Source: Ostrinia nubilalis
Taxonomy: Eukaryota > Arthropoda > Insecta > Lepidoptera > Crambidae
Assembly: GCF_963855985.1 (NCBI RefSeq)
Contig: NC_087091.1
Location: 15,754,154 to 15,818,153 of the forward strand
Direction of reading: 5' to 3'
DNA length: 64,000 nt
Below, piece after piece: positions 35,130 to 60,000 of the stretch; positions within the stretch are counted from its first letter, which is position 1; the number at the start of each line of letters is the position of its first letter. Below the pieces are notes generated by a model, which was not told the origin of the DNA, made no database searches, and worked only from the letters and a program-made list of their open reading frames with translations. The position numbers and the translations under genes are program-made.

Positions 35130-35755
35130 GACTACGGCGCGACTTATTCGCGACTACGGCTCAACTGCTACGCGAATACTACGCGACTATGGCGCTACAG
35201 TTTCGTTCGCTGCTTCTTGCTGCGCCCATATTAAACGCCGATGTACGATGTTTGACTATGCATTCTGTCTTATTTACTTATAACTGATACAGAACATATA
35301 TCCTAGCGTTCATTACTTTACTTTATATCTCGTGGTGCAAAGCGACGATGATGTTGGCGAGCGCAGTGCGCGCGTCACCGGTCGGGAAGCTATCGAGCCG
35401 TATGTGTATATATCTAAACGATCAAATATGAGATAGATATTATATCAATTTGTGGAGCCTAGCTCTTATTTACCAAAGACTATATTTAGAACATGTATCC
35501 TAGTGACTCCTAGCCCCGTACGTCAAATCTCGTGGTGCATAGCAACGATGATGTTGGCGAGCGCACGCGACCAACGGCGCGACTGCTACGCGGCTACGGC
35601 GCGACTAACTATAGTAGCTAAGTTTGCGCTACTTCTTACAGCACCACATTAAACGCTGATGTTTGACCGCTGTATGTGAGTGTGTGGGAGTTTCCGCTGT
35701 GTATATGCTTATGGCTCTTATTTACCTATAATGACATAGAACATGTATCCTAGTG

Positions 35756-35871
35756 GGTCTTATGCTTGTTTTCACCATCAATCCCCAATTTTTGTGACCC
35801 CTTTGAAAACAAAATCCCTGTTATGTGTTACCGTTATAGGGGTCACTTAAAAATAAGGGATCGGGCACTAG
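35756..35871. mobile_element. TTTTCACCATCAATCCC repeat, copy 2, inside the array
   Basis: Related to 14256 and 38715. The tandem paralogue at about 35500-35520 reads straight from CCTAGTG into ACTCCTAGCCCCG, i.e. it is the empty site, so this element inserted after the array duplicated. Confidence 0.75.
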
Positions 35872-35888
35872 ACTCTTAGCCCCGTACC

Positions 35889-36047
35889 TCAGATCTCGTG
35901 GTGCATAGCAACGATGATGTTGGCGAGCGCAGTGCGCGCGTCGCCGGGCGGGAAGCTGTCGAGCACGGCCACCGCGCGCGCCACGTGCGAGCGCTGCAGC
36001 CGCTTGGTCTGCGCGATGCCGTCGCCTTCTACCACCGCGCGGTATAG
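35889..36047 (-). CDS. PDSS2: PDSS2 last exon (C-terminus)
   Basis: Read on the minus strand from a CCTTCAG acceptor: [20 protein letters not shown], then [20 protein letters not shown] and VAMHHEI before TGA at 35889-35891. The ALxxFPPxxARxALxNI pattern is the conserved C-terminal helix of PDSS2. This is the only complete copy among several partial ones in the surrounding array, so it is taken as the functional exon. Confidence 0.93.
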   Translation of the reverse strand, partial: LYRAVVEGDGIAQTKRLQRSHVARAVAVLDSFPPGDARTALANIIVAMHHEI

Positions 36048-39000
36048 CTGAAGGTAGAAGAGTTATATGAATGGAGCAGCGCGACTACGACGCGACTACA
36101 GCGCGACTGCGACGTTACTACAGAGTGAATGCTATTCTACTGAGGCGCAACTGCTACACGCTACGTTGCGACTGCTACGTGATCGACAATAGTGATTGAA
36201 TTTCTTGCGCTGCCTCTTCTAAGCAGTGCCCACATTATTTACAGTGTTCATTTAATGAAAAAACTTAGTGAAACGTTTAATCACACGCGCGCCACGTGCG
36301 AGCGCTGCAGCCGCTTGGTCTGCGCGATGCCGTCGCCCTCCACCACCGCGCGGTATAGCTGAAGGTGGATAAGAGTTAAATGATTGGAGCAGCGCGACTA
36401 CGACGCGACTACAGCGCGACTGCGACGTTAATACAGAGTGAGTGCTATTCTACTGCATCGCAACTGCTACACGCTACGATGCGACTGCTACACGAGACAC
36501 GACTACGGCGCAACTGCTACGTGATTGACAATAGTGATTGAGTTTCTTCTCTTCTAAGCAGTGCCCATATTATTTACAGTGTTCAGTTAATGAAAAAACT
36601 TAGTGAAACGTTTAATCACGAGCGCACCACGTGCGAGCGCTGCAGCCGCTTGGTCTGCGTGATGCCGTCGCCCTCCACCACCGCGCGGTATAGCTGAAGG
36701 GACACAAGCGTTTGACCATAAGGTTTCTTTCAAATTAGACGTTTTCAGCAGGACGTCTATCGTGCGTTTGCAAGACCGCACACTAACTATTGGTGATTGT
36801 CATTCCGACGCAGTTGTCATACAATTTACCGTGTGCAGTCCTGCAAAAACGCACGACATCGTCCGACTCAAAACGTCTAATTTGAAAGAGCTCTAACGTT
36901 ACTACGGTTAACAGTACGACGCGATTGCTAGGTACTTAAATAGTTTAAATACGACGCAATTGCTAGGTACTTTAATACGACGTGACTGCTACGTAACTAC
37001 GAAGAGACTGCTACGTTACTACGAAGTATCTGCTACGTTACTACAGAGTGACTGCTGTGACACTAGATTGCTACGTTACTACGGAGTGACTACTACGGCA
37101 CGACAGCTACACTATTACGACGCGACTGCTACACGGCTACTACGGCGCGACTGCTACCTACACCTCTACGGAATGACAAGTGAAATTGGACTTCAACTCA
37201 TTAATTTCTAACATTTCGAATGAACTTCTTTTTAAAATACTACATGATACGGAAAATAAAGCGATTGTTTTTCAGAGCATCTTTCACACTCACCGCATGA
37301 TAATCTACGTCGTGAACGCTGCGGCGGCCCGGCTCGATCAGCTCATAAAGTTCAGGCCGGGCTTGCAGCGTGAAGGCCACTAGTGCTCCCACGATCTACT
37401 TTGATAGAGCATCTTAAACATCCACTCACCGCATGATACGTGTTCTTCGTAGTCCGGGTGCTTTCAGGAGCCCTATGTAGTGTTGCAGCTCCCTGTAGGC
37501 TCTCAGAAAGTTTTTAGAGCGTCATACATATTCACTCACCGCATGATAATCTACGTCGTGAACGCTGCGGCGTCCCGGGCTCGATCAGCTCATAAAGTTC
37601 AGGCCGGGCTTGCAGCGTGAAGGCCACTGGTGCTCCCACGATCTACTTTGATAGAGTAATCTTAAACATCCACTCACCGCACGTTAGGTGTTCATCGTAG
37701 TCCAGGTGCTTTCAGTAGCCCTAGTGTAGTGCTGCAGCTCCCGGTAGGCTTTGAGAAAATTTTTGAAGCGTCATACATATTCACTCACCGCGTGATAATC
37801 TACGTCGTGAACGCTGCGGCGTCCCGGCTCGATCAGTTCATAAAGTTCTGGGCGGGCCTGCAGCGTGAAGGCCACTGGTGCACCCACTAATGAGAAGCTG
37901 GCTGGCTCAGGGCCCGTGAACGCTTCAAGGTCCAGGAACGCTTGCCAGGCCAGAGCCAAGTGACAGCCGAACAGGTAGCCCTGGAACCAAAGAAGATAGG
38001 ATAATAAAATTGACACTATATATTTTATGAGCTATCTGTTTTTGTGAAAAATACTATTGACAGGTAGCTAATAACTCATAAGATAGGTCCCCCTCAATTG
38101 ATGTTTATCATCCGTGGTGCATATCTATACTAATATTATAAAGAGGAAAGATTTGTACCTATTTTTGTATGTTTGTAATGAATAGGCTCAAAAACCACTG
38201 AACGGATTTTGATGAAACTTTACAGTATTATTGTTCATAATCCAGAATAACATATAGGCTATAATTTATGATGATCTGTGAAAAACGGTAGACCAATGAC
38301 GTCACCGATTCGCGAATTCAATTGACTATCATTATAAGAATATGTATAGATTTCAAAGCTCATCGTTTATGTTCGCATATTTCTCAATGAATCACTTTCC
38401 ATGAAATCCACGGGAAGAATAGGAGTAGTCCTATTTTGCCTGAACACCACAACACGGTTGAGAGGGTATACTTAGTCCCGTTTATAGTGTTGACATGTTA
38501 CTAAAATATCACAACAACCAAAATATGTTCTACTCATCTAAAATTAACATAGCAAAATATGGCATAAATCATGAATATTTCAGGCTCATTAGGTGTTTAC
38601 TCATCAATATTAAAATGTTCAACGCTCAGAAATGGATTTGCATAATTCAATAGTAAACCTCGGAAAATCAGATAGCAAACGCAATCAAAGGGTTAGCCAT
38701 AAGCCTTATAATAAACTTATGCCCGTTTTCACCATCAATTCCTAATTTTTAAGTGCCCCTATGTAAACAAAATTCCTGTTATGTTACCACTTAAAAATTA
38801 GGGAAGCACCAATATTTAAAATCCACTGTCTTACATTGTTAGAAGCATTACTTAGAGGCACTCGGACTCTTCTATTGATGGGTAAAAGAAGCATTAATTA
38901 AAAAAAAATGGCCTTCATAGCTGAAAAAAATACGAATTGTCGAAAATAATGATTTGTGTAGATAAACTGTTCAGATTTTTTTTCCATCCATGCTGTAGGT

Positions 39001-42000
39001 ATGTATAAATGTATGTAGATACATTTTCTAAAACAAAGAACCATCAGTCTCCTTTACACGCACGGGTCAAATCGTGCCCTCTTCAAAGGGCCTCCTTCAA
39101 GAGACCGACATGACCTTAAACTGTACAATGGTGGAGAACTTTCTAACGCGCTTTGCTGATGTCGCCAGTACTTGACTTGTGCAAGCGACTGAATCTAATT
39201 CGTAAGTACTCGTAAAATGTTGCGAAAATGCGCGAATAGAACTCTACCATATTCATGATTAAAAGGAAAAATACTATAGTTGTATTCATTTAAAAAATAT
39301 ATTTATACAATTTCATAGGTGGTACCAGAGTTTTCCTGAACGTTTTAAATGTTAATAAATAAATAATAATAATAAATATTATTTGCCAGTAAACATGGTA
39401 TACAAAGATGGAATATTCATAATGTTTCAGACATGTTTAGCCAGAGAATTAAGCATGCAAATTATGGTAAAAAAAAAAACTCAAAACAATGCTCAAAGTT
39501 TAGCCGGGCTTTACAGTTAATAATTCTTTAATGTCATAGAAGTTCTGTGAGACAAGCCAATTATAAAGATGCGCCTTAAATTGATAAATATTTAATTCTT
39601 TAAATTCTTTGGGTATATTGTTAAAAACCATTGTACGCACATAGTCAAACAGCTTTTGCTGTATTGCATGGTTTTTGGAGTATCTTGCAGAACCAGTCTA
39701 TGAGGATCTCTACTATTTCTGGGATAAATGTCACAAGCCCTCAAAAACAAATGCTTATTTTGCATTACAAATAAACTTATCTCTAGGATATACAGTGATG
39801 TTAATGTCAGCAAGCGAAGTTTCTGGAATAGTGGTCGACAGGATGTAAGCGGTGGAACACCACATATTGCTCTAATGCATTTTTTTTGTGCAATGAAGGC
39901 TCTTTTGATATTGGTACTGTTTCCCCACATCAGTAACCCGTATCGTAATATGGATCCTACATATGCGTGATAAATGGTGATTGCAGTTTTAACATCAGTG
40001 ACGTTTCTCGCTTGCTTCAAGGCATAAACAAACCTATTCACTCTATTACAAATATTATATCTATGTGAACTTTCCAATTTATATCTTGATCTATAGTTAG
40101 TCCCAAGAGTTTCGTTAGATAACTATTATAATTCGCAAGGTCTGACATTTTAACTGTTTGTAATTAAACGAACCCCATAAAGTTGTAATGGATAATTCCT
40201 ATATTTTAACCATTATAATTTAATGACGTTAGTTATTGTATTATTAAGATCGTTTACTGCATGATAACTATACCTATGTGTAAATAATGATATGATTTAT
40301 ATTAAAGTAAATTGAAGATTAACCTTTACATACCTATATGTACATAAATATTCCACCTATTTGTACCTATTCCATAAAATATCTTTACGTGGTCGTTTCT
40401 ACAAGACTCCTTACAAATAAAATTTTTAAAAACAGTCATATAGACGGAAGAGTGTGTACTGCCTCTGGTTTAAATGCACCAAGCAACTTTTAACGTAGAG
40501 TTCAAGGTACTTCAATGTCGTCTCAAGCGAAATTATTGAATTTCCGTGATTCCGTTGACATTTCTCGAACCCACCGGACGGACAGGAAGTGACCTTTGAA
40601 AGCACATCTTGCTCGATGCATAGACTGAGTGAGGTGTGTGATTTTAAAGCGGTTTTTTTTTCACCTTGGGTTTAACAGCACACTGATCTCACACATTGTT
40701 AAGCCTTTATTTCGCCTGAGATACAGGAAAAAAATTCCTAGTTCAGGCACATGTATAATTTTACCTTTTGTAGCATAAGATTAGCCTAGAGTTTAAATTG
40801 TCAAATAAGTTATTCAATAAATAATTTATTCTCTATTATTTATTTAATATTGTTGTTTTAAGGTTACGTAGGTTTTTGTAGACCGGGTTTAAAATTTTTA
40901 TTCCTTAGATCGATGCTGGGCGACGCGACTAAAAAAATTCGGTTGACATTCGGGTACTGGGCTCAAAATCCGGAGCTTTCACGCACCTTGGCCAAATTTT
41001 AGAGATGGCAACCATTTGTGCAGTATGCCACCACTAATAGGCCTCTTAAAGAAGCTCAAAGTTGCACAAAGTGCTATGGAAAGGGCTATGCTCGGTGTTT
41101 CTTTACGTTATCGAATCAGGAATGAGGACATCCGTAAACGGACTAAAGTCGCTGACATAGCCTGATGGATTAGCAAGCTGAAGCTGTGACTGAAGTGACA
41201 ATGGTAAGGGTACATCATAGTACGCAGAATTAACGGCTGATGGGGCAGCAAGGATCTGAAATGGAGGCCACGTACCGGAAAACTTAGCGTGAGACGTCCA
41301 CCTACAAGGTGGACCAAAGACCTAATAAAGGTAGCAGGAAGGCTCTGGATGCAGGCCGCTACCAACCGCGCGATATGGAAATCATTGGAGAAGGCCTAAG
41401 CCTATGTTCAGCAGTGGACGTCCTGTGGCTGAAATGATGATGATGATGATGAACACTCGACCGACCTGCGTCTGCAGCTGCGGCTGATGGCCCGCCATCC
41501 GCCCATAGCAGCGTCCTGTCGTCGCTGTCAGTTCAAAAGGATGTATGTTATACCAGTAGGTTTTCAGGAGACACAAAAAACTGTATATATTTTTAAATTT
41601 AGGATGACATACGTCCTTTTGAACTGACAGCGTCCTGTGCTGTGGGGACACTCGACCGACCTGCGTCTGCAGCTGCGGCTGGTGGCCCGCCAGCTTGAGC
41701 GCGGCGGAGCAGCTCTTGCCGAGAAGCGCCCGCCGCGAGCACGTGGCGCGAGGCCCACTCGCGAGGCAGGCAGCCCGCCAGCCGCCCGGCAGCGTCCTGT
41801 GCTGTGGGGACACTCGACCGACCTGCGTCTGCAGCTGCGGCTGGTGGCAGCGTCCGGTGCTGTGGGACACTCGACCGACCTGCGTCTGCAGCTGCGGCTG
41901 GTGGCAGCGTCCTGTGCTGTGGGACACTCGACCGACCTGCGTCTGCAGCTGCGGCTGGTGGCAGCGTCCGGTGCTGTGGGACACTCGACCGACCTGCGTC

Positions 42001-45000
42001 TGCAGCTGCGGCTGGTGGCAGCGTCCTGTGCTGTGGGACACTCGACCGACCTGCGTCTGCAGCTGCGGCTGGTGGCAGCGTCCGGTGCTGTGGGACACTC
42101 GACCGACCTGCGTCTGCAGCTGCGGCTGGTGGCAGCGTCCTGTGCTGTGGGACACTCGACCGACCTGCGTCTGCAGCTGCGGCTGGTGGCAGCGACCTGT
42201 GCTGTGGGGACCCTCGACCGACCTGCGTCTTCAGCTGCGGCTGGTAGCAGCGTCCTGTGCTGTGGGACCCTCGACCGACCTGCGGCTGGTAGCAGCGACC
42301 TGTGCTGTGGGACACTCGACCGACCTGCGTCTGCAGCTGCGGCTGGTGGCAGCGTCCTGTGCTGTGGGGACCCTCGACCGACCTGCGGCTGGTAGCAGCG
42401 ACCTGTGCTGTGGGACACTCGACCGACCTGCGTCTGCAGCTGCGGCTGGTGGCAGCGACCTGTGCTGTGGGGACACTCGACCGACCTGCGTCTGCAGCTG
42501 CGGCTGGTGGCCCGCCAGCTTGAGCGCGGCGGAGCAGCTCTTGCCGAGCAACGCGCCCGCCGCGAGCACGTGGCGCGAGGCCCACTCGCGAGGCAGGCAG
42601 CCCGCCAGCCGCCCGGCTGCGTCCTGTGCTGTGGGGACACTCGACCGACCTGCGTCTGCAGCTGCGGCTGGTGGCAGCGACCTGTGCTGTGGGGACACTC
42701 GACCGACCTGCGTCTGCAGCTGCGGCTGGTGGCCCGCCAGCTTGAGCGCGGCGGAGCAGCTCTTGCCGAGCAACGCGCCCGCCGCGAGCACGTGGCGCGA
42801 GGCCCACTCGCGAGGCAGGCAGCCCGCCAGCCGCCCGGCTGCGTCCTGTGCTGTGGGGACACTCGACCGACCTGCGTCTGCAGCTGCGGCTGGTGGCCCG
42901 CCAGCTTGAGCGCGGCGGAGCAGCTCTTGCCGAGCAGCGCGCCCGCCGCGAGCACGTGGCGCGAGGCCCACTCGCGCGGCAGGCAGCCCGCCACGCCGCC
43001 CATGGGTAACGGGTCCACGATGCAGTCCCATTCTGGAACAACATACGGAGTTAGCGTACTGAAGTAGCATAGATTAGGATGCATGCTAAAGTGGCAGAAT
43101 GGACGTTAGTTTACTAAGGTGTAATATAACATTTAGAATAAATGCAGAGTTAACCTACAGATGTAGCATAGTCCAGAATGCAAGCTAAAGTGGCAGAATA
43201 CACGTTAGTCTACTAAGGTGTGATATAACATTAATAAATTGTCGTCCAAGATGCAAGTGTCGTTCAAAATGGAAAAAAGTTGGAGCAAACTCTCGAATGG
43301 AGACAGTCTTATCAAAATTAGCGAAGGACGTAGGAAGGGGAATCGTGCTTTGTGGTGCTGTAAACTTATGCCTAGCAGTGAACTACCATAGTCTAAAATT
43401 ATAAAATTTCAATGATGAGACAAATCCTCATTCGGTGCTACCTATATACCGAATGGGTATTTGTGAAAGAAAAGTTCATAATCCCGCATTAATGAGCCCA
43501 GTCAATGAGGATAAATATTTTTTGGCATACCATTTCTAGTACCCTAACATTATTAGCGAATCTGACAGACTCTATTGTTATAGGAAACAGAACAAGATTC
43601 ACGTCTCAATTTTCATGACATCGCATCAATAAGTAAGAATAAACATAGAGACGGAAGAATGAAGTAAGCACCCACATTGTTCCTTATTGAGGCGGTGCAA
43701 TTCGCACAGTGGGACACTAACGTTAGCATTCAGGGCGCGAACGCGACACACGTTGAATGTTAATACACAGTGTGCTGTGGACATCACATTACACTGTGGA
43801 ATGTGGTTTTTTACACATCGTAGTTGGTTTAGCCGAGTTTAATAGTGTGGAAAGAAATAGAATGCCCTTTAAGACAAGAAATACAGTTTATTCCTGATAT
43901 ACTGACTTATAGTATGACTGACCAGTTTTTCTGTGGCTAGACCATAATTTTCTTTCAACAATAATAATATGGGTTGAAAACAGAAGACGTCATCTTCATG
44001 ATATTATCACGATAGTCCATCGCTGCACATGTCAATGCTTGTTACACGTCATCAAACCCATTTTTAGGGTTCCGTACCTCAAAAGGAAAAAACGGAACCC
44101 TTATAGGATCACTTTGTTGTCCGTCTGTCCGTCCGTCTGTCAAGACCCTTTTTCTCAGGAACGCGTGGAGGTATGAAGCTGAAATTTATATCAATTACTC
44201 AGGTCTACTGTCCCTTGAAGCTGTGAAAAAATCAAACTTCTAAGCCAACGCAATCAAAAGATACAGCCGTTTATGCCGCAAATTTTCGACACTTGCAAGG
44301 GAATCAAAACCTACAGGGTGCTTCCCGTGAACTCAGAATCTTGAAATTTGGTACGAAGCAACGTCTTATAGCATAGATAAAGGAAAAATTACGAAAACCA
44401 TAAATTTTTGTTACATCACATAATATATATTTTTTTTTAAATTTTAAACTTACTACCCATTTCCTCATAAACGCGTAGAGGTATTAAATTGAAATTCATA
44501 CCAAATACTCAGGTCTATAATACCTTTAAGCTGTAACAAAATCAAACTTCTATGTCAACGCAATCAAAAGAAACAGCAATTTAAGCTGCATATTTTGAAA
44601 CTCGCAAGTACTCGCAAGGGAATCAAAACCTAAAGGGTACTTCCAGTCGACCTAGAATCTTGAAATTTGGCATGAAGCAACGTTTTATAGCACACATAAA
44701 GGAAAAATTCCGAAAACCTTAAATTTTTAGTTACATTACAAAATATATATTTTTTAATAAATATAAACTTATTACTTTTTTCCTCATGAACGCGTAGAGC
44801 TATCAAGTTGAAATTCATATCAAATACTTAGATCTAATTGCCTTTAACCCGTGAAAAAAAAAAACATAGTTATGACTCGATTGTCGTAATGAACGAACTT
44901 TGTAAACCTTGCAGGTTTGTACGGAACCCTCGGTACGCGAGTCCGACTCGCACTTGGCCGGTTTTATTTATTTTATTGGCTGTGCCACAGAATAATACGA

Positions 45001-48000
45001 GTATTAAGTACTACGTACATAAAGTTTTCTTTATTTAAAAAATGTATGCTCAATGACATCAACAAGCAACTTAAAAAAAGTGTATTTTGTGTTTCTAATT
45101 ATTATTAACCAAGCAGTAAAAAATGTCTTTACAATGCAAATGTACGGAGGATACGCGTGCGAGCGCGTCAATGCTCGTTCGTGAGTGCCTTGTCGACTAA
45201 ACATCCCTGCCGGGCTAGGTTGTGCGCCGTGATAAAATCTTATCGATGATTTTAGACGACAAACGTATGGGCTAATCGCATGAAATCGATAAAATTTCGC
45301 GATAAAAGCTTAAAGCGCGCATCCTAGGCCTATAGGAGGGTACGCCGTGGTGTTTTGTTTTCGATGTAAACTCGCGGAGATGAACGCCTGGGTTGTGCTA
45401 CGTACACGCCAATCAAGTAGTTATTACCAAAATTGTGATATTCTAAAAATATTTTCTCATTTTTCGACATTATTATGTTTTAATTATTTTTAACGACCGC
45501 GTTATTGCATTGAAATTACACTTGGCACTGATTTATTATTTGAAATCCTATACTAACGAATAAAGTAGTAATAAAGAAATTACAAAAATAATATTGATAT
45601 TAGAAATAGTTTTAAATTCTTGCTTGAGGGCTCATTAGAAGACTCAATTAAAGCATAAAATTGGTAAAAAATGCATTAATTGAATACCAAAATAGATTCA
45701 CTTTCCCCTAGGAAGTAGGTACCTTCACAGATTACATTATGCTGATGGCCAAATAACCAAGTAAGAGAGAGATGGTAAATTTCCATGCGCTTCGACTAGG
45801 TTCAAAAATCTCGTAATTGTCTTGACCCTGATTGGATTTAAAGTTTCGCCAAGCACATGAGATATTTGATGTGCAGTGACGAATATTATGGACATGGTTG
45901 TGCTGGTCTCGGATCTCTGCTGTATATGGTGATGGTACCCCTTTCATTTTGGACTAAAGTTATTAGCCTAGAGTTTAAACTGACAAATAAGTTATTAAAT
46001 AAAGATTTCATTTATTATTTTGGACTTAGCCAGCATATTTTACTAAACTAAGAGCAACGACCCACTTGATTAGGAACATACAGCATATTTTCCTAAACTT
46101 TATCTGCGTCACAACTTTTTTCAAATTTTAAGGCTGAGTTACACCATCTTACTTTAACTTGAACAAACTTTGTCAATATCTGTCAAACTTCATACAAAAA
46201 ACACCAGTTATCGTCAAAGTTACGGTCAAAAATATGTGCTGCAACTCAGCATAAAAGGTCATTTTCTGGAAATAATAATTCAGTTTATGTTATTTTCAGT
46301 AGATGATACAAACATACATTTATCAATCTATTTATAGACTCTATCTAGTTGTTCTATAAATAGCCATGTTAAATGTGATGAGAGTACTTAGATTGTGTTG
46401 TAAAGTGAATGGCGGATGCGCATGAGTTTACACATTGACCCGGATTGACGTCGCAGGCAAATATGGACGGTTCGTGATCTATTGACTGTTGACTATTAGC
46501 TTTGCCCATTCGAAACTTGGACGTGCTTGTGCAAAGCCATTAATTACATAAAGGTGCGAGTTGGCTCATTAATTATTAGGAGTCGAATGAACGTGAAGAA
46601 GATCTAAATGTAAGGTACAAAATAGAGATGTACTCTAAATGTTTTGTACTAAAACTTTTGGAGTGTGTGCCGAGGAAAAGTGGCGGAAAAGCACCCATAC
46701 ACAAACAGTCTATTATGGGCATTAGGTTGAAATGAAAGAAAGTCTACAAACAAACATGGTACTTTCTTTGTGCGAACATTCTTTTCATATATTTTTCTTT
46801 CTTTTCTTTTCAACCTAAAGACGTCTAATCCACTGCTGAGCAGTAAGGCCCCAAGGATTTCGATATCAACCTGCCCTGCGCTGCCCACACACAAGTGCTT
46901 CTAGCAAGGAAAGATTTTTAAGCAATAAAGTTAGGGAAATAAAATAAAAGAGGAATAAAAGTGTTCTCACCAGAAGCCGGTCCCCACTCCGCCTCCGGCA
47001 AGGGGCGGGAGGGCAGCGGGTTGTTCTGCTCGTCTCGGTCGCCGAGGAACTCCGCTTCGGCTAAGTCTCGCACGGCTGACGACATCAGCTCGACCAGCTC
47101 TTGGTTCCTGTGGCCAAGAAATAAGGTTGAGTTTCGATTGGAGAAAAGGCTGGTTTGCAACGCAGGCTCATATTATTTTGTTCGTCCCTATCGCCGAGGA
47201 ACTCTGCCTCGGCTAGTCGCGTACGGCTGAAGACATCAGCTCGACCAGCTCTTGGTTCCTGTGGCCAAGAAATAAGGTTGAGTTTCGATTGGAGAAAAGG
47301 CTGGTTTGCAACGCAGGCTCATATTATTTTGTTCGTCCCTATCGCCGAGGACCTCTGCCTCGGCTAGGTCGCGTACGGCTGAAGACATCAGCTCGACCAG
47401 CTCTTGGTTTCTATGGCCAGGGAATAAGGTGGACTTTAGATTGGAGACAAAACTGGACACAAGCTTAAGTAAATTCGACTCTATCAGCTCCTTGTTCCTA
47501 TGGCCAAGAAATAAGGTTGAATTTCCATTGGAGATAAGGCTGCGATTGCAACGCAAGCTCATGAACCCGTGTGTACAAAAAAGGAATACATTTTTAGCAA
47601 TTCTCTAGCTTCTTCTACAGTAAAGGTGACTTCTACAGTAAACTCCGCCTCGGCTAAGTCCCGCACGGCTGATGACATCAACTCGACCACCTCTTGGTTC
47701 CTGTGGCCAAGATATAAAGCTTAATTTCTATTGGAGGTATTTACCTATTTATGATTTTCGCCGTTAGCCAATATACCTACGTATTGTCCCGAAGCAAGCG
47801 GTGATGGTGAAGTAGGGCAAGCTATATGTGAGAAATAAATCTAAGAGCATAAATGACTGCCCTGAAATGACTGTCTTTGCCTATTATACCACGCTCAAGA
47901 TGCATACATGATTGTGGTCGACCGGTTGGGGCAGAGCGTGTTTGTTAGGCTTCTATCGCAACATAAGTCTTTCTTGGACTGTTACTTGCTGAGATTATTT

Positions 48001-51000
48001 GCCCATTCCCATGGATAAGGATAATACGCTAATCATTTTCCCGCTCAAAAAATGTAAATAGGCACTGCTGCCTACTAAAATACATTGCGCGCATTTGTGC
48101 GTGTGTCTACAGTCTACACCTAGTGATCTGGAAATAACTTGCATTGAGCAAAACAAAGAGGCGGGTAAGATAGGGAAAGTGGAGAAAACATCGAAACTTC
48201 AACAACAATAAAGTAACTTGATCTATGTCATTTGGAAGAGACAATGTATCAAAACTCTTGGTTCCACCTTTAGTTAAAAACAATACTTTTAGTGCCACCT
48301 TTAACAAAAAAAAACGCTCTTTGACCGTCAATACATGGCGAGACGGAAAATTTGCAAAAAAGGGAAAATAAGTTATTTATTTTCTTATTTAATCTAACCA
48401 AAAATATATCGCTTACTTGACCTATTGTAATTTTTGTAATACAATACTAATAAATATGGTGAGCTAACGTTTGCCGCGATAACTTTGTAGGGCAAAACCT
48501 AGAGTTCAGCCACGTTAAGGTATTGAGTGTAATATCACAAAATAACATAGACATTATTTTGCTAGTACCGTTAATGTTTCCGCAATTGATTATTGAAAGT
48601 ACTTTAACTAAAAGAACATTTAACAAAGCGTGTTTCAGTCCTGAAAAAAATCCCAATAGAAATCGCCTAACAATAAACTGTTACCTAACAATATTTTCGC
48701 CGGTATTATAATAATTCACACCTAGCGTCGCTGAACAGCACTTTCGCTTGCTCCATCAGTATTCTGTCCGCGACTACAACTAGTGGACACATGATAGGTC
48801 CCTACGATACGCCGCACGCTAATAAAACAAAGGAACATCAGTTCTAGACTTTAAAATAACGTTTAAAGCCAATGCTTGTGGTCAAGCTGCTGGTTTATTG
48901 AGAGAAATAAAACAATATGTAGAAATGAAATACAAAATGTTTACCTTCATTTAGATCCTCGTAGATAGACACTTAATTTAAGTGCAAATGCGGTCAATAA
49001 GCTGTTTAAAACTACTTATAAAGTTACCTAAACATAGTTTAAATTCAATAATGAGTCATTGAAGTAATATTACTTATAACTCAATGTAATGAGTTCTGAT
49101 ATTTATGAATGTCCTTCGTAAGTTTATCACGTTCGAGGGCAGGAGAAACTGTGTTCTCTTGCATTTGGGCCGCGGCATGCAGTTCCGTTATGTAGGTATG
49201 GAATATAATAATTAACTAGCCTTAACTAGCAATTGCAAGAACAAGTTACAATAATGATAAGGACCTAGACCTTATAACCTCGGGAATATGTAGCTTGCTT
49301 TGAACAATCGTATTTGTACCCGAGCCTACATAAAAGATTTATCACCTGACATCAAGAGTCGTGTGAAATGAATTTTCACACAGGTACCTACTTATGGCTC
49401 TCGAAGAAAATATAATCTGAGGAATCAACCAAAGAAGTGGCTTATTGTTGAAAAACAGATTGCCATGAAGCAGAAACATCAAAAAAAAATGTAGCTTAAC
49501 CTCGTCAGTGCCAGAGGTATGGGAGCGGCACGGGAGGGGTGGCATTGACATTATTATGACGTGACAGAGCATACAAATCTCACGTCTCGCTGACGTTTGA
49601 CACCAACAAAAAACATTCTTCCGTGCCGCTCCCATACTTCAGGCACCGACTGAGATAATATGCTCTAGACCAGTGTTTCCCAAACTTATTTTGTCTACTG
49701 CCCACTTTGAGAATAAATTCTTTTGAGCGCCCCCATTAAATTTTCAAGAGTCAAATGCTCAGTCGGTTTCTAAGAGACCTCCTAAGTAGATGAAATTACA
49801 AATGTCCTACCAAGCCTTACACAATGCCCCGATTTTTTTCCGGGGTCTCTTACCGCCCCCCTTTAAGCCTGCAGCGCCCACAAGGGGGCGTTATCGCCCA
49901 CTTTGGGAAAGACTGCTCTAGACCTATAGAGAAAAAGTTTTATCAACTTATTATAATTAATGGGCAACTCCATTAAACAATTAAGTTTCTCCCTCGCAGA
50001 ATTCGAACCAGCAACTGGATATTATAGCTCGGTACTCGACCACTAGGCCAAAAATTATCATGATTCTCTTTGAAATGTAAACCATACATAATTGTTTATT
50101 GTAATATCCCTCTCCATAAGACAATAAAATGGGCAATAAAGATCTTGTTCTAGCGCATCTAATAAACATTTGCAACATAATGTTTTGAATGCAAATCAAC
50201 AGCGAAACTTTCCGAGTCACGATTTGACCCGATTATTTTACGGTGCTTAGGCTGGGTTGCACCATCTTACTTTAACTTTTACAAACGTCAAAAATCTGTC
50301 AAAATCTATACAAAAAATACCGGTTATAGTCAAAATTACGGTCAAAGTTAGGTGGTACAACTCAGCCATATTAGTTATTATTTTAAATACTCAGATGAAA
50401 AAGTTGTACGAAAGATTTTCATAAATGGAAATAATTTCCAAGCATAATGGTAACAGAGATAGTTACCTACTTCTAAGTAAGCTAACTTGGCCTATCACAT
50501 TGCCATACTTAGGTAAGTAGGTACTCAGAAAACCTAGCCAAAAATTCGCCATCGCAAATAAGTACCTATACCTTAAGCCCAAAGATGACCATGGCCGAAG
50601 AGAAACTACTTAAAACGATAGGTATATTTAAGTACTTAGCTCTACAATTGATAGATATTGTAGTACTTATACTTACGAGTTACTCGTAGGTCTTTGCCCC
50701 CTACTTAGTAGATTGCAGGGTTATTAATAAAATCGGATACCTAACCGGTATAGTCCAGTCATTTAAGCTTAAATTAGGTAAGAATCTCGGAATTAGAGAT
50801 ACCCAGCTGTAAGTCTGTAAATACTTTTATATTGACACCCTAAAAGTTGTCTCAAAACCTACATATGGTAGGGTGTAAGCAACTATTAAATTTTAAGGTC
50901 AAAGGTCACAAAAATCGGTTTTTTGCGCTTTTTTTGGAAATATCTCATTTCCTATGGGTTTTTTGCTATTTGTATTTATTATCAATATTGTAGAATACTA

Positions 51001-54000
51001 AATTCTCTACAAATTTTGTTTAAAAAATTTTTTTATACGGTGAACCGTTTTCGAGATAGAGGGCGGAGAGCGCGCGGTCACTGCATCACTTCAGGTCAAC
51101 TTAAGCGGTTTAGGTTTTTCATACAAAAGGATTTTCCCGCTAATTCCCGTGGGAATTTCGGTAATTACTTGTTGTAAATAAGCTTTAAGTTTACTAAGGT
51201 ACCTACATGCCAAATTTCAAGCGTCTAACTTCCGTTAAGCGTTTAGATTTTACATACAAAAGGATTTTCCCGCTAATTCCTGTTCCCGTGGGAATTCCTA
51301 AGTAAACTATAACCTGCCCAGGTGTATGAAGAATAATTGTACCAAGTTTCGTTAAAATCCGTCGAGTAGTTTTTGTTTCTATAAGGAACATACAGACGGA
51401 CAGACAGACAGACAGACAAAAATTTTACTGATTGCATTTTTGGCATCAGTATCGATCACTAATCACCCCCTGATAGTTATTTTGAAAATATATTTCATGT
51501 ATAGAATTCTATATGAAGTACAATTAAACACTTTTTGAATGTATATTTTTATTTAATTCAAAAACATACGAATAATCCTAGTTATTGGCCATAAAATTCT
51601 GTAACTGGCCATATGCATGCTAGTTACTGGCCACAGAAAAAAATAATATATTACAGCTAAAGAAATCAATATAACATGAAAAACACAACGTTATCTAAAA
51701 CTGTATGAGATCAGTCGTGAAACAATATAATTTACTCATAGACAAAGTGAATATTTCAAACCTAGGAGCTATAGTTTCAATATAAGTCTCAAATAAACAA
51801 ATAAAAACAAAACTATCTAATCAAACCCTTGTTTTTTGGCTTCTTTATAGACAGCAGCAAATAAATAATCCACTTCATCATCAGATGAATCAGTGTTACT
51901 CTAACTTTATCATCATAAATGACACAAAAAGGAATCGTCATCCTGTTCTGGTAACACTCTATGAGCAATTGGAATACAATTCAAATGATACTTTTCTTGG
52001 CATTGATTACATTCTATAATTCTCTTTTTGATAGGGCACAAGCAAAAATCTCTACGAAAACGAATCACAAATGAGGAGATCCGTAAACGAACTAAAGTCG
52101 CTGACATAGCAGACAATAGGCAGGGCATATAGTACGCAGAACTGACGGCCGATGGGGCAGCAAGGTTCTGGAGTGGAGGCCACGTACTGGAAAGCGCAGC
52201 GTAAGCCGTCCACCCACAAGGTAGAACGATGACCTCATGAAGGTAGCAGGAAGGCGCTGGATGCAGGCCGCCTCTAACCGGCCATTATGGAAATCATTGG
52301 GGGAGGCCTATGTTCAGCAGTGGACGTCCTATGGCTGAAATTATGATACGGAAGTAAGTGCAAACGGTAGTCTTTCTATTTGGCGTTTGTCCTGCTTTTT
52401 GGGCGAATTCAGTGTTTTTTGGTACTTCTTGGCACATTGAAAATATTTGCTGCTTGTCGAATGGATCCTTCCTTGTTTTCTATAAACTTCAAGGCCTTGT
52501 TAAGATCTTCTTGAGAATACTTTCGTCGCTTTGATGCAATCTTGTTTATCTAATGGATGTCTGTGAAACAAAAAATGGTTAGTTTAGTTATTGACACTTT
52601 GCTTTTAGTTACTGGCCACCTATGCCAGTAACTGAAATTTATGGATAGAAATAAATGATTTCTAGCCCGTAGATACTAAACTTTAAAAACATTACAAATA
52701 CGGTGTATTTCCGCAGAAATTCGATGAGCATAGAATAATTTAGTTATTGGCCGGTCTGGCCAATAAACAAAAATAAATACAAATTGTCATTCAGTTACTG
52801 GCCACCCCTCAAAACTGAGGTTTTATTAGATTAACTCTAAATATGCTACTGTAATATTGAAACTTACCGTTTAAAAAACACAATAGCACTGCAAACCACT
52901 GCAAAACACTGAAAACTACTCCATATTACTATTTTTGAAATAAATCCGTCCGTTAACAAATACATTACATAAATACTTCTCCGAGGGCGTCCGGGTACCA
53001 ACTATCAAAAAAATGCTGTTAGAATTGGCACTATGGTCAATAACGGGAAAAAAATGAACTAAAATGAAACCTGATTAATAAAGCAGTTCTTTATGAAAAA
53101 TACAGATGGCCCGACCTGCCCCGTTTCTTATTTTGTGCCGACAAAGTGCAGTATGGCCAATAATTGACGTTGGCCAATAACTGGGTAGTTTACCCTATTT
53201 CTAAAAAAAGCGCAAAAAACCGATTTTTGTGACCGTTGACCTTGAAATTTAATAGTTGCTTACACCCTACCATATGTAGGTTTTGAGACAACTTTTAGGG
53301 TGTCAATATACACGTATTTACAGACTTACAGCTGGGTATCTCGAATTCCGAGGTGAACTTACTATAATGACTGGACTAGTAGTAAATGAAGTTTTCTTCC
53401 ATACTCCACACACTCAAAGTATTAATGGTGTAATAGTATTCAACAACGCACTCATAATTTACAACCGTGCGACTTTCCCGAAACAAAACAATAGTCCCAA
53501 TAATGTGCCGCCTTAATAGGAGAGATGGGAATACAAGATGGGACTGAATAGTAACTTCGGGACTTTCACAATAAACATACAGGCTGGAATTTCGTAATTA
53601 AAAAAAATACTTTTAATACTGTACGTAGAAAATGTTATTCAAAGAAAACATTCCTCTATTTTTGAACAGAAATAGAACTGCATTCAAAGATTTCCAAAAC
53701 TTTTTCTTGCCACACCCCGGAATCGAACCAACTAAAATCTGTTGAAAATTACACCCTGTCTTTTTATTGCATCGATCGTTAGGGTTAAGTATAAGGATGA
53801 AATCTCTCTAAATTGATAATTGAATGAAAGGAAAACCATGAAATCTTAAATTATTTTAATTATATTTCCAGAAAATTGTATGGTATGGTGGTGAATTAAA
53901 AAAAACGAAATCTTTGAATGCCAGTTCTCATTCTTTTCAAAAATAAAAGAAAGATTTCTTTGTCTACAGTATTAAGAGTAATTTCAAAATTCCACCCTGT

Positions 54001-57000
54001 AGAAAATTACACGCGTGATTATACAACCATGGAAAATTTATCAGTTTAACAAATAATGTCTCGTACCAGTTTGACGAACGCCGATTTACTTAATGGCGGA
54101 TTACGTAAGTTGGCTCAGAGCAGGCCTTGAAAGTGCAGTCGTGAAGTTTTGAACCTACTTCAACTATGGCGTTAAACTCGATAAACGCCAAAGAAAACGT
54201 CATGCGAATTGTTTTGCAAGAAGAAACAACACAATTTATAGATTCTCACACTTTGTTAAAATAAACTAATAATATAGATCTTAAGTTTGTTTGTTTGGTT
54301 GAACGAGCTAATCTCAGTAACTACTGGTCCGATTTGAAAAGTTTAGGCTAAGTAGGTATATGTAATAACATCACGCTATGACCAATAGGAGCGGAACATC
54401 AACGAAAATTGTAGCGAAAACGGGAAAATTTATTAAATGATTTTCACGCGTAGGTACGAAGTCACGCGTATAGCTGTTGCAAACTTAATGCTTTTTGTCA
54501 ATTCAAACATGTGTACCTACTATTTGTATAATTGTTAAAGCATAAAAAAAATCACTTGACGGACGATGCGTCTAGTCTAAACCACATTCTTACGCAACTT
54601 AGTGCTTGTGCTATGCTAGCGTCGGGTTTCATCATCATTTCAACACTATGGCCAAATGAGAGCTAAGATTAGTCTAGATTCTAGAAAGAATTATTTGTGC
54701 AACGAGGGCATAAGTACAATGACTAAACAGTGGTGACTTGAGAACGGCTCTATTACCTAAGTAAGGAAGGACCTATAGGCAGTCGATACGGTTATGGTCT
54801 CAACTCAGATAATGACTCCGGTGGAAATATGTAGGTTTACTTAGATTGTATGAATGGATTCGTTCAGTATATTAGATAGACATTACCTAAGTACATACCA
54901 ACGTGCTTGTTAGTAACAAGGTAGCGTTTACGCACGTGGAAATGTAGGCAACTCCGTAACTGGCGTTCACTTCACCCAAATACTGCACGGATCATTGCAG
55001 TCTGCAGCCGACCATTGCGGAATACGCAACGCAACGCAACTCTCTAATTTTATTGTAATCGACAGTTCATCTAATACACTCAACATCAAATAAATCGCAC
55101 CTTCCGCAACGCGAACTTTAAAGATTTTCTTCTGACACAATCATGGTGCCCCAACAATATTGGTGTTATTTGAAAGCCCAATAAAAACACATTTAATTTC
55201 TTAATAAATGATTAACATACCATAAATGTGACTTGAAAAAGACCTCACTTTGGGCTCACCTCTGGGATCAATTAGACCAATTTTTATGGTTATAAAATGA
55301 AATAATGATCTCACGTGTTCTCTTTAACAGATAGATAGCGATTAATCCCAACTTAACAGTTTTATAGCCATAAAAGTTGGCTCAAGCGTAACTACTACTA
55401 CTACCTATTTTTTGAAGAAATGACTCTGGATCCTTATAAAGACACATTTTTGGGAATAAAACCTTTCCTTTAATGAAATGAAGCCAATATTTGTGGGAAG
55501 TGGGAATGCATACATTTGAAAGTGCTTGTTGCAGGAGGTGCGATTTATTTGATGTTGAGTGTAGTACCTACCTATAGTCGAGTGCACTAACGCAAGAGTT
55601 TATAGAGGCGCAGTATTTTTATTGCATGTTAAGTATGATTGCCAGTAGATAAAGTGTCCTTAACCGTTGACATATTATTATGTTCGGCAGACGGTAAATC
55701 CGCGTGATTCTCTCACTTTTGCAAGGCCAGCATAATCCTCAAGTTAGTGAACTCTGAGCGAGAGCTGGCAAGCTTACCACTGAACTACGTTATTTTGGTA
55801 CCAAACAGTGGTTTATTGTAGTAAGGCTTAGCCGCCACATATCGCGCATTCATGCTTAGATTTGTGGCCTATTTTCTAACACCTACCACACCTACATCCT
55901 TACCTCAAGTTGGCGAAATAATAGAAGCCTAATACAGTTAGTCAACAGGTGCTGAGTAGCCCAATCATATTGCCAAACATCCTATCATCGGGCTCGCCTG
56001 TTCCTTGTCGCGCGTCAAGTTTAGACCTTATACTTAGTGCATGAATTTGCAATGTATGGAACAGTGGCTGTTTTCTATTTCCAAATAAGTACTCAAGTTA
56101 TGTATACGCCGATGAGCAGCGCGATGTTATTTTGGAACATCTTATTTCTTTTAAGGTAACAGGATCGGTGGTCTTCACAGTAGTACTCATGCGCGTTCAT
56201 GTTGCCGAGGCCCTTGTGTCTCTGTTGTACTGTAGGGGAGACTGGGTACGGTTGAAACAATTTTGCTTTTATTGTCTATAATTTTGTTGTTTAATAACCA
56301 AGTGACGATTACGATACGTGAAATTGAAATTTGAAGTTTTAGCTATGATATGGCTGTATCATTATAGTTCCCGGGTTACTATTTTTAGAAATATACGAAA
56401 TTAAAAAAAAAAGAAATTTTGTTTCAACCGTCCCCATGCCAGGGGCGGTTGAAACAGCGATTGGGGTCTGTTGAAATATATACAAATAATACAATAAATA
56501 CCAATAAAACGTGTTTTATTTATCATTAATACTACGAATATTAAAATTATGGTAGCAGATGATGACATTAATCAGTCTAAGTATTTAATATTTCTAAAAC
56601 ATTAATTAGCCTTTGATAAGTAGTAAACATTTAAAAAAATAACAGAAATATGATAAAATAAATGATATTTCCAAATCTAATAAACATTAATAAAATAATA
56701 TTAACATTCTGAAGAAAGTTCACGAAAATCTTAATTTTTTTTTCAAACCATACTTTTCCGCCGCTTTTCGCAGTGAATCTCCAGCTTTTACCTCCTCTTA
56801 TGCTTTACCAAGTCAATTTCCTCCCTGAAAATCTTCCTTACCCAAACTCTCGGCATCTACAAAAAATAAACATTAATACATTTTCTGTTTCAACCGTACC
56901 CAAAAAAAATGTTTCAACCGTCCCCAACCCCACTTTTGGTAAAATATACTTTATAGTTTCGACATTAATAATCACACATTAAAAATAGTTACTGTCCCTT

Positions 57001-60000
57001 ATTCTACAAGCTTCATTATAATCGCAAACGCAAATCTGATACATTCACATAAAAAGAACAGATAGTATAAGCGTTAATGTCTGAAGAAAAATACTTACTT
57101 TGGGTAGTAAAAAACAAAATGGTGGTTTATACACAACGTCAACGCGTTAGGAAGTTATTTGGCACTAAATTCGTGTTCGGACCTGTCTTCCGCTTCTTTT
57201 TCCCCTAGGACCCCTCACTCCCCGCGGAACCGTTTACGAGATATTTGCTCTGTTTCAACCGTCCTTTGTTTCAACCGTACCCAGTCTCCCCTACTGACCG
57301 CAAGTTGGCGAGCTCGGAGCAGGAGTTGGCCAGCAGGTAGTCGCCGCTGAGCAGCGCGATCTTGTTCCCGAACATCATGTCGTCGGGTTCGCGGTCACCT
57401 GCCGCGCGTTCATGTTGACGAGGCCCTTGTGTCTCTGTTGTACTGTACTGACCTCAAGTTGGCGAGCTCGGAGCAGGAGTTGGCCAGCAGGTAGTCGCCG
57501 CTGAGCAGCGCGATCTTGTTCCCGAACATCATGTCGTCTGGCTCGGCCACCTGCCGCGCGTTCATGTTGCCGAGGCCCTTGTGTCTCTGTTGTACTGTAC
57601 TGACCTCAAGTTGGCCAGCTCGGAGCAGGAGTTGGCCAGCAGGTAGTCGCCGCTGAGCAGCGCGATCTTGTTCCCGAACATCATGTCGTCGGGCTCGCCT
57701 GCCACCTGCTGCCGCGCGTTCATGTTGCCGAGGCCCTTGTGTCTCTGTTGTACTGTACTGACCGCAAGTTGGCGAGCTCGGAGCAGGAGTTGGCCAGCAG
57801 GTAGTCGCCGCTGAGCAGCGCGATCTTGTTCCCGAACATCATGTCAAAGTCAAAGTCAAAATTTCTTTATTTGTTTAGACTAATAAATAGTTCTTACAAA
57901 TCGTCATTTTGCTCTTAAGAAGCCTCTACATGTCTCATAATCTTTTTACCCTACCAGCGCTTCGAGACCAACATTTGGCAAGTGCTGAGAAGAAGCGCCG
58001 CAACAAACTCAGTCACCACTGTCTGCCGGTTAATATAAATAAATAGAAATAGCAGTAGTAGGTACATTCGATTCAGGAGCAGTTCACTGAATTTACCATG
58101 CATTCTTGTATAGTGTATCTTATAATGGGTATACAAAATTGCGTGGTATATTAAACAAGGTAGTGACGTGCTAATATCTAGACTTACAGATTACATACCT
58201 AAATACTAGTAGAAATGACTCGCATACATAAATTGGAATAACTTGTCGTCGGGCTCGCCGGCCACCTGCTGCCGCGCGTTCATGTTGCCGAGGCCCTTGT
58301 GTCTCTGTTGTACTGTACTGTACTGACCGCAAGTTGGCGAGCTCGGAGCAGGAGTTGGCCAGCAGGTAGTCGCCGCTGAGCAGCGCGATCTTGTTCCCAA
58401 ACATCATGTCGTCGGGCTCGCCGGCCGCGTTCATGTTGACGAGCCCCTTGTGTCTCTGTTGTACTGTACTGACCGCAAGTTGGCGAGCTCGGAGCAGGAG
58501 TTGGCCAGCAGGTAGTCGCCGCTGAGCAGCGCGATCTTGTTCCCAAACATCATGTCGTCGGGCTCGCCGGCCGCGTTCATGTTGACGAGCCCCTTGTGTC
58601 TCTGTTGTACTGTACTGACCGCAAGTTGGCGAGCTCGGAGCAGGAGTTGGCCAGCAGGTAATCGCCGCTGAGCAGCGCGATCTTGTTGCCGAACATCATG
58701 TCGTCGGGCTCGCGGCCACCTGCCGCGCGTTCATGTTGCCGAGGCCCTTGTGTCTCTGTTGTACTGTACTGACCTCAAGTTGGCGAGCTCGGAGCAGGAG
58801 TTGGCCAGCAGGTAGTCGCCGCTGAGCAGCGCGATCTTGTTCCCGAACATCATGTCGTCGGGCTCGCGGCCACCTGCCGCGCGTTCATGTTGCCGAGGCC
58901 CTTGTGTCTCTGTTGTACTGTACTGACCTCAAGTTGGCGAGCTCGGAGCAGGAGTTGGCCAGCAGGTAGTCGCCGCTGAGCAGCGCGATCTTGTTCCCGA
59001 ACATCATGTCGTCGGGCTCGCGGCCACCTGCCGCGCGTTCATGTTGCCGAGGCCCTTGTGTCTCTGTTGTTCTGTACTGACCGCAAGTTGGCGAGCTCGG
59101 AGCAAGAGTTGGCCAGCAGGTAGTCGCCGCTGAGCAGCGCGATCTTGTACCCGAACATCATGTCGTCGGACTCGGCCACCTGCCGCGCGTTCATGTTGCC
59201 GAGGCCCTTGTGTCTCTGTTGTACTGTACTGACCGCAAGTTGGCGAGCTCGGAGCAGGAGTTGGCCAGCAGGTAGTCGCCGCTGAGCAGCGCGATCTTGT
59301 TCCCGAACATCATGTCGTCGGGCTCGGCCACCTGCCGCGCGTTCATGTTGCCGAGGCCCTTGTGTGTCTGTTGTACTGTACTGACCGCAAGTTGGCGAGC
59401 TCGGAGCAGGAGTTGGCCAGCAGGTAGTCGCCGCTGAGCAGCGCGATCTTGTTCCCGAACATCATGTCGTCTGGCTTGGCCACCTGCCGCCGCGCGTTCA
59501 TGTTGCCGAGGCCCTTGTCTCTGTTGTACTGTACTGTACTGACCTCAAGTTGGCCCTTGTCTCTGTTGTACTGTACTGACCGCAAGTTGGCGAGCTCGGA
59601 GCAGGAGTTGGCCAGCAGGTAGTCACCGCTGAGCAGCGCGATCTTGTTCCCGAACATCATGTCGTCGGGCTCGCCGGCCACCTGCTGCCGCGCGTTCATG
59701 TTGACGAGGCCCTTGTGCACGAGGTGCGAGGTGCGGATCATCTCCGTCACCTCGGCCAGGGCGCGTTGACTGCGAATTAATACCAGTCGAATTAGCACCT
59801 ACTGAGATATACAGGGTGTTAGGTAAATCGGTATATGAGCCGACACTAGCCCATGTTAACATGGCCATATAAATGGTATGGTGAAGTCAGAAATTTGGTA
59901 TCATCTTTTTTTTTTTTTTTAATTTTCATACAAAACACATTTAATAAAATCCGATTTGTATGAAAATCGAAATAATTAAAATGAAGATATCTATTTTCTG

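Follow-up and report, generated by a model that had tools for sequence, protein, structure and literature searches.

The window, a stretch of 64,000 nucleotides of Ostrinia nubilalis (C4:15754154-15818153), carries the PDSS2 gene on its minus strand. The spliced product of the gene as mapped here is identical at 425 of 426 residues to the Ostrinia furnacalis PDSS2 record P0001. There are seven exons, six of them within the window and exon 1 beyond it, with the following positions.

68404-68714 (window-equivalent), minus strand: PDSS2 exon 1; no array by self-BLAST
62987-63118, minus strand: PDSS2 exon 2; GC 0.55; no array by self-BLAST
59581-59769, minus strand: PDSS2 exon 3; GC 0.65, GC3 0.95
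46971-47107, minus strand: PDSS2 exon 4
42872-43032, minus strand: PDSS2 exon 5; GC 0.75, GC3 0.96
37789-37980, minus strand: PDSS2 exon 6
35889-36047, minus strand: PDSS2 last exon (exon 7), coding part including the stop codon, mapped without the 3′ untranslated part

Divergent PDSS2-like paralogs lie at G000:C18:1427497-1433210 and C27:5439487-5451596. Two of the paralogs give single matches of ~320 residues, one of them with an internal stop, which suggests that they are retrocopies. A second copy of PDSS2 as the origin of divergent fragments was ruled out, since among the 38 matches listed the only ones beyond C4 are these C18 and C27 paralogs, matching at 36-47% in five pieces and at 60-70% in four pieces of 43-46 residues.

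Arrays at the exon ends of PDSS2

The exon-end arrays of PDSS2 are unusual. Self-BLAST places tandem partial copies at five of the seven exons (exons 3-7, hence five of the six in the window) and none beside exons 1 and 2. The copies cross a splice junction, and at the last exon they also take in its 3′ end; with E-values down to ~1e-75 they are not chance matches. The arrays are listed below.

55935-59580, minus strand: donor-side array of exon 3; each copy takes in exon nucleotides 53-189 and, mostly, 9-21 nt of intron, with units of 146-158 bp in the majority
47173-47736, minus strand: acceptor-side array of exon 4; four partial copies, upstream in the transcript sense, unit ~152 bp
41453-42871, minus strand: donor-side array of exon 5; units mostly 57 bp and 165 bp
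37287-37788, minus strand: donor-side array of exon 6; two extra copies, unit 247-248 bp
36286-36700, minus strand: acceptor-side copies of the last exon; two copies
35319-35565, minus strand: copies of the 3′ end of the coding part of the last exon; two copies

The earlier note on this DNA had described junction-spanning tandem copies at five of the six PDSS2 exons in the window, and self-BLAST confirms this, together with the sides it assigned (donor for the arrays at 59.6, 42.9 and 37.8 kb, acceptor at 47.0 kb, both ends at the last exon). Its statement that the arrays vary in unit length and age is correct as well. In the exon-3 array the farthest copies are degraded, and the array extends to ~55.9 kb, beyond the TRF rows, broken by insertions at ~56236-57291 and ~57846-58235. 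The insertion at 56236-57291 has terminal inverted repeats with TA at both sides and appears DNA-transposon-like by eye; as it sits inside the array, the array is older than the element. The insertion at 57846-58235 starts with AAAGTCAAAGTCAAAATTTC and resembles a dispersed repeat.

Several other repeats lie in and around the gene. An inverted-repeat (MITE-like) insert at 36700-36895, recognized by eye, is placed exactly at the acceptor of the third exon-7 unit, and GC-rich 22-bp minisatellite blocks (35130-37161) flank the last exon and lie partly inside its acceptor-side copies. A 99-bp intronic tandem pair at 43048-43232 is 15 nt upstream, in the transcript sense, of exon 5, and a GC-rich tandem array of 33-44 bp units at 60973-61612, between exons 2 and 3, has no visible exon part. 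Over the first 34 kb of the window the repeat listings give only short two-copy, simple and CAG-rich repeats, among them a two-copy repeat at 27451-27624.

Similar arrays in other genes

A local direct-repeat scan of the window and 100 kb on each side of it revealed a second dense repeat cluster beyond the right edge of the window, ~50-100 kb away. Several of its unit consensuses read as glutamate synthase followed by a donor-like GT, and a homology search led to GOGAT proteins. Mapping protein P0121 (Ostrinia nubilalis) gave 40 exons covering residues 80-2050, with residues 1-79 not located and a total ending 3 nt longer than expected. The junctions are GT-AG with one GC-AG; the two that follow exons 8 and 34 were placed manually, and exon G34 may end one base off. 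Local copies accompany 11-12 of the 40 mapped exons, the twelfth being G32, a single weak match of ~31 bp. An exon-by-exon self-search under one protocol thus gives local copies at 17 of 47 exons, five of seven in PDSS2 and 12 of 40 in GOGAT, and in each array one functional exon accounts for the PDSS2 and GOGAT proteins. At GOGAT exons G25 and G26 (window-equivalent 136691-138750, L016) the copies begin at or beside the acceptor, and these could be true alternative exons.

The whole assembly (495 Mb, 52 contigs) was searched with Pfam domains for repeated partial matches. The 138 kinase matches include at least three array loci (C1, C2, C21) and the 92 Helicase_C matches at least two (C19, C8), while 19 AAA matches gave no array. 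Scoring took in 125 of 659 kinase candidates and 19 of 132 AAA candidates, so that these frequencies are lower bounds; they do not include a pair at C10:14216979/14219344. In O. nubilalis, tandem duplication of exon ends has thus occurred repeatedly, in several genes spread over six chromosomes. The usual unit joins the 3′ part of an exon, the donor site and a stretch of intron, and the units form a minisatellite-like array downstream of the intact exon. The earlier note had presented the arrays as the property of a single gene, and had named identical arrays at many unrelated genes as what would refute it. GOGAT and the kinase and helicase genes do carry similar arrays, which refutes the gene specificity, and a PDSS2-specific mechanism is ruled out.

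Exon composition and array side

In PDSS2 and GOGAT together, exons that bear arrays are richer in GC than those that do not (0.64 vs 0.57, p=0.001; 17 vs 30 exons). Within GOGAT alone and with G32 left out, the difference in GC is 0.62 vs 0.57 (p=0.04) and array-bearing exons are longer, at 191 vs 131 nt (p=0.0004; 11 vs 28 exons in both comparisons).

Arrays with at least two copies fall on the donor side in 14 cases and on the acceptor side in two (P4, P7; p=0.004, PDSS2 and GOGAT). With the acceptor-side matches that are single and weak (G21, G32, G35) the count becomes 14 vs 5 (p=0.06). Inclusion of the PAK, ULK and both helicase loci instead brings it to 18 vs 2 (p=0.0004), and inclusion of both sets to 18 vs 5 (p=0.01). 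The C1 kinase locus was omitted from these counts because of its complex anatomy, the array of the 3′ end of the last PDSS2 exon was not entered as donor, and the G21 and G25 copies, which lie downstream of their exons, nevertheless reach 2-3 nt into the acceptor side. In 11 of the 14 donor-side arrays the copies start in the exon interior, the others being G21, G25 and G26, where they start at the acceptor or within 3 nt of it. Starts also vary within an array (nucleotides 55, 120 and 124 in G34; 54 to 178 in G35). In P3, P5, G06, G11, G14 and G21 the intron part is only 9-35 nt in most units, so that the unit approximately tracks the exon.

Coding signature of the intronic copies

All copies were compared, in alignments, with the functional exon of their array. 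The exon-by-exon search yielded 107 copies, of which 101 entered the codon analyses, the exceptions being the G32 match and five copies with less than 78% identity; an identity cut-off of 80% was used for the tally of unique differences and of 70% for the comparison of broken with intact copies. Unique differences between copy and exon number 69, 28 and 203 at codon positions 1, 2 and 3. Differences present in at least three quarters of the copies comprise 50 synonymous and 7 missense changes; of those present in no more than half, 138 are synonymous, 75 are missense and 9 create stops. At sites covered by at least three copies the synonymous fraction is 0.60 for variants in one copy, 0.74 for those in several and 0.89 for those in all copies, against an expectation of 0.24-0.30. 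In the exon-4 array of PDSS2 there are 13 synonymous vs 4 missense differences.

Differences among the copies are likewise mostly synonymous. Across 16 arrays the mean copy-copy divergence at codon positions 1, 2 and 3 (p1, p2, p3) and in the intron part is 0.054, 0.024, 0.133 and 0.112, and p3 exceeds p2 in 14 of the 16. Copy-copy p3 does not differ from the intron value (p=0.38); copy-exon p3 is higher than it (p=0.05). Random mutation in these exons would place a fraction of 0.30 on position 2 and 0.37 on position 3. In the 16 arrays the observed p2/p3 is 0.18 when copies are compared with one another and 0.13 when they are compared with the exon; C19 gives 0.21 and C8 0.11. Stratified by base and CpG, the p3 vs p2 odds ratio is 8.0, which rules out a CpG or base-composition artefact behind the third-position bias. 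Faster evolution of the functional exon was rejected as a cause because exon-only changes make up just 19 of 211 differences.

Three independent loci, on C1, C19 and C8, give similar tallies, with a mild bias in that they were first found by protein-level matches. The C1 kinase locus, comparing a reference copy with five others, has 23 synonymous and 6 missense differences; the C19 helicase has 32 and 20 among 12 copies (p1/p2/p3 0.08/0.054/0.259), and the C8 helicase 17 and 2 among four. The PAK array (2 missense) and the ULK array (1 synonymous, 1 missense) hold too few differences to inform, and these arrays are too young to tell.

Indels are rarer per substitution in exon parts than in intron parts (0.10 vs 0.27, p=3e-4), and the splice-site bases of the copies diverge less than their intron parts (0.063 vs 0.112). 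Many copies are without an acceptor. Among unique exon indels 15 of 19 shift the frame (26 of 34 with looser gaps); frameshifts occur in 25 of 101 copies and in-frame stops in 13 of 101. Stop changes are only about halved, with 9 observed vs ~18 expected. The synonymous fraction is 0.71 in copies with a stop or frameshift vs 0.69 in those without, and for singletons 0.51 vs 0.59. In sum, differences of the intronic copies, whether from the exon or among themselves, are chiefly synonymous.

Discussion

The copies carry the imprint of selection on coding sequence and lie in introns. We give about an even chance that the arrays are best explained by a pool of exon ends that recombine with one another, the coding signature being observed and the exchange inferred. 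The broader proposal, that the exon ends of many moth genes are recombining tandem intronic pools in which the working end is the current occupant of a slot and selection on that slot would preserve the coding competence of dozens of non-coding copies, we advance more tentatively, at somewhat less than even chances. Duplications would arise by slippage or microhomology repair in GC-rich exon DNA, and only those crossing a junction would survive, because one intact exon then remains. Donor-side duplications would survive best since the true donor is transcribed before the decoys, and with acceptor-side duplication the decoy acceptor would precede the true one; a mutational bias at donors is the alternative to this survivorship. 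The functional exon end and its copies would then go on exchanging through unequal recombination, and a copy with a missense, stop or frameshift change would be purged once it entered the functional slot. Purifying selection on one slot could in this way keep the whole intronic pool coding-competent while synonymous variants accumulate, and broken copies would be recent ones. The pools would also record natural experiments on splice-site order, with donor-side copies tolerated and acceptor-side copies rarely so.

A simulation of this process used 100 chromosomes with 4 or 8 units, s=0.5 and exchange between chromosomes. Copy-copy dN/dS was 0.98 without exchange, 0.60 at 4Nr=8 with 8 units, 0.30-0.63 at 4Nr=20 and 0.20-0.25 at 80; copy-exon values were 0.18-0.38 at 20 and 0.12-0.15 at 80. 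Exchange at 4Nr of 8 or less is rejected because the simulated ratios miss the observed ones, in a comparison where the observed p2/p3 is a mere stand-in for the simulated dN/dS. With exchange, one-copy variants were less purged than shared ones, matching observation, and the simulation predicts high synonymous diversity of the functional exon in the population. Pervasive exchange is also expected to leave four-gamete incompatibility. Of 268 informative site pairs 84 are incompatible, 69 in G34 and 13 in G35, so that 82 of the 84 stand in two arrays and the direct signs of exchange are uneven; P3 has 0 of 6 and G11 0 of 15 such pairs. Points that speak against the recombining pool are this unevenness, the frameshifted and stop-bearing copies, the mere halving of stop changes, the weaker side bias once single matches are counted, and the two PAK differences, both missense. 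Reading of the alignment shows shared variants in conflicting combinations among the C1 kinase copies.

Some mRNAs might at times take the 3′ part of the exon from an intronic copy, so that ordinary coding selection would act on the copies in place. Strong codon constraint on the copies and the lower divergence of their splice-site bases favour such direct use, and the G21, G25 and G26 arrays, starting at or near the acceptor, could be whole alternative exons. Yet copies in 11 of the 14 donor-side arrays start in the exon interior and starts can vary within an array, as in G34 and G35, so that no single splice restores frame, and copies with frameshifts and stops exist; we consider direct use unlikely. 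Plain minisatellite decay would be a conveyor or treadmill on which copies leave the exon and afterwards undergo neutral drift as intron sequence. The degraded state of the most distal exon-3 copies and the presence of degraded copies beside intact ones speak for it. Under clock-like drift at most half of any copy-copy or copy-exon branch would be functional, so that one functional trunk predicts p2/p3 of ~0.4-0.5 or more, and the ratios observed in the 16 arrays, at C19 and at C8 all lie well below this. Values below ~0.4-0.5 imply that both lineages were coding-constrained for most of their time. Mutations coupled to the duplication events could rescue plain decay, which as it stands we hold to be quite improbable.

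The arrays might instead be young and built, without continuing exchange, from deeply divergent functional alleles supplied by a large or structured population, introgression or hypermutable exons. In its favour, the copies resemble functional alleles of the past that have gone through a short neutral phase. Third-position divergence between copies of 0.16-0.29 in 8 of 16 arrays seems too high for one species, where alleles are expected to differ less, and this origin appears doubtful to us. Allelic differences would also appear synonymous if the arrays were false tandem duplications or allelic mis-joins, and the arrays are seen here in assembled sequence. Up to 16 copies per array, private mutations, insertions within the exon-3 array and chromosome-scale contigs speak against such an assembly artefact, which we think very improbable.

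The arrays have parallels in several known systems. Minisatellites or VNTRs are born at short direct repeats in GC-rich DNA, and the present arrays resemble them in their head-to-tail GC-rich units of mostly 57-350 bp, in copy number that differs between arrays, and in internal variants and homogenised sub-blocks. Unlike minisatellites, the units described here hold an exon end and mostly a donor, in several genes, and units outside exons would be expected to lack coding constraint, whereas the present copies are constrained. Mutually exclusive tandem exons of the Dscam type are complete exon copies in introns under coding constraint. The present arrays are likewise intronic tandem exon copies with coding constraint, but most copies lack the acceptor side, being exon fragments, and frameshifts affect some of them; as complete exons they fail in the 11 donor-side arrays with interior starts, with G21, G25 and G26 possible exceptions. 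Multigene families evolve in concert, and silent cassettes may supply a single expression site; one expressed slot with many silent partial copies would be a similar arrangement, with exchange here inferred. Selection in the present case is purifying rather than diversifying, and it concerns metabolic, kinase and helicase exons at a sub-exon scale.

Two further comparisons draw on published accounts. Tandem genomic duplication of an exonic AGGT can create a new intron (PMC3443670), and that account shares with the present arrays a duplicated coding sequence that is tolerated because the spliceosome removes the extra; existing introns lengthen here, whereas that model creates a new one. At the unit starts inspected, which come from the last exon and 14 donor-side arrays with as many as 8 starts per exon, an AGGT is absent within 8 nt, and intron gain of the AGGT type is rejected for these. 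MicroDNA, or small eccDNA, consists of short genic segments often lying between short direct repeats (PMC8414719), with sizes of 100-400 bp (PMC5587290). The size range and the genic segments are similar to those of the arrays, but microDNAs are circles and not chromosomal arrays; by analogy the two could share an origin. Partial coverage of the literature yielded no paper on exon-end arrays of this kind, which is weak as evidence of novelty.

The donor-side bias and the codon-level constraint on intronic copies are additions to what the earlier note had observed. Exon-end arrays occur on at least six chromosomes of one lepidopteran genome. If the recombining pool holds, intronic DNA bears the evolutionary signature of coding sequence though it is untranslated, and gene annotation and constraint-based inference would be misled by it. 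In its evolution the functional exon would then behave like one member of a multi-copy family, with a larger effective size. Through the bias of donor over acceptor it would become possible to test, across a genome, whether the transcription order of splice sites acts as a survivorship filter.
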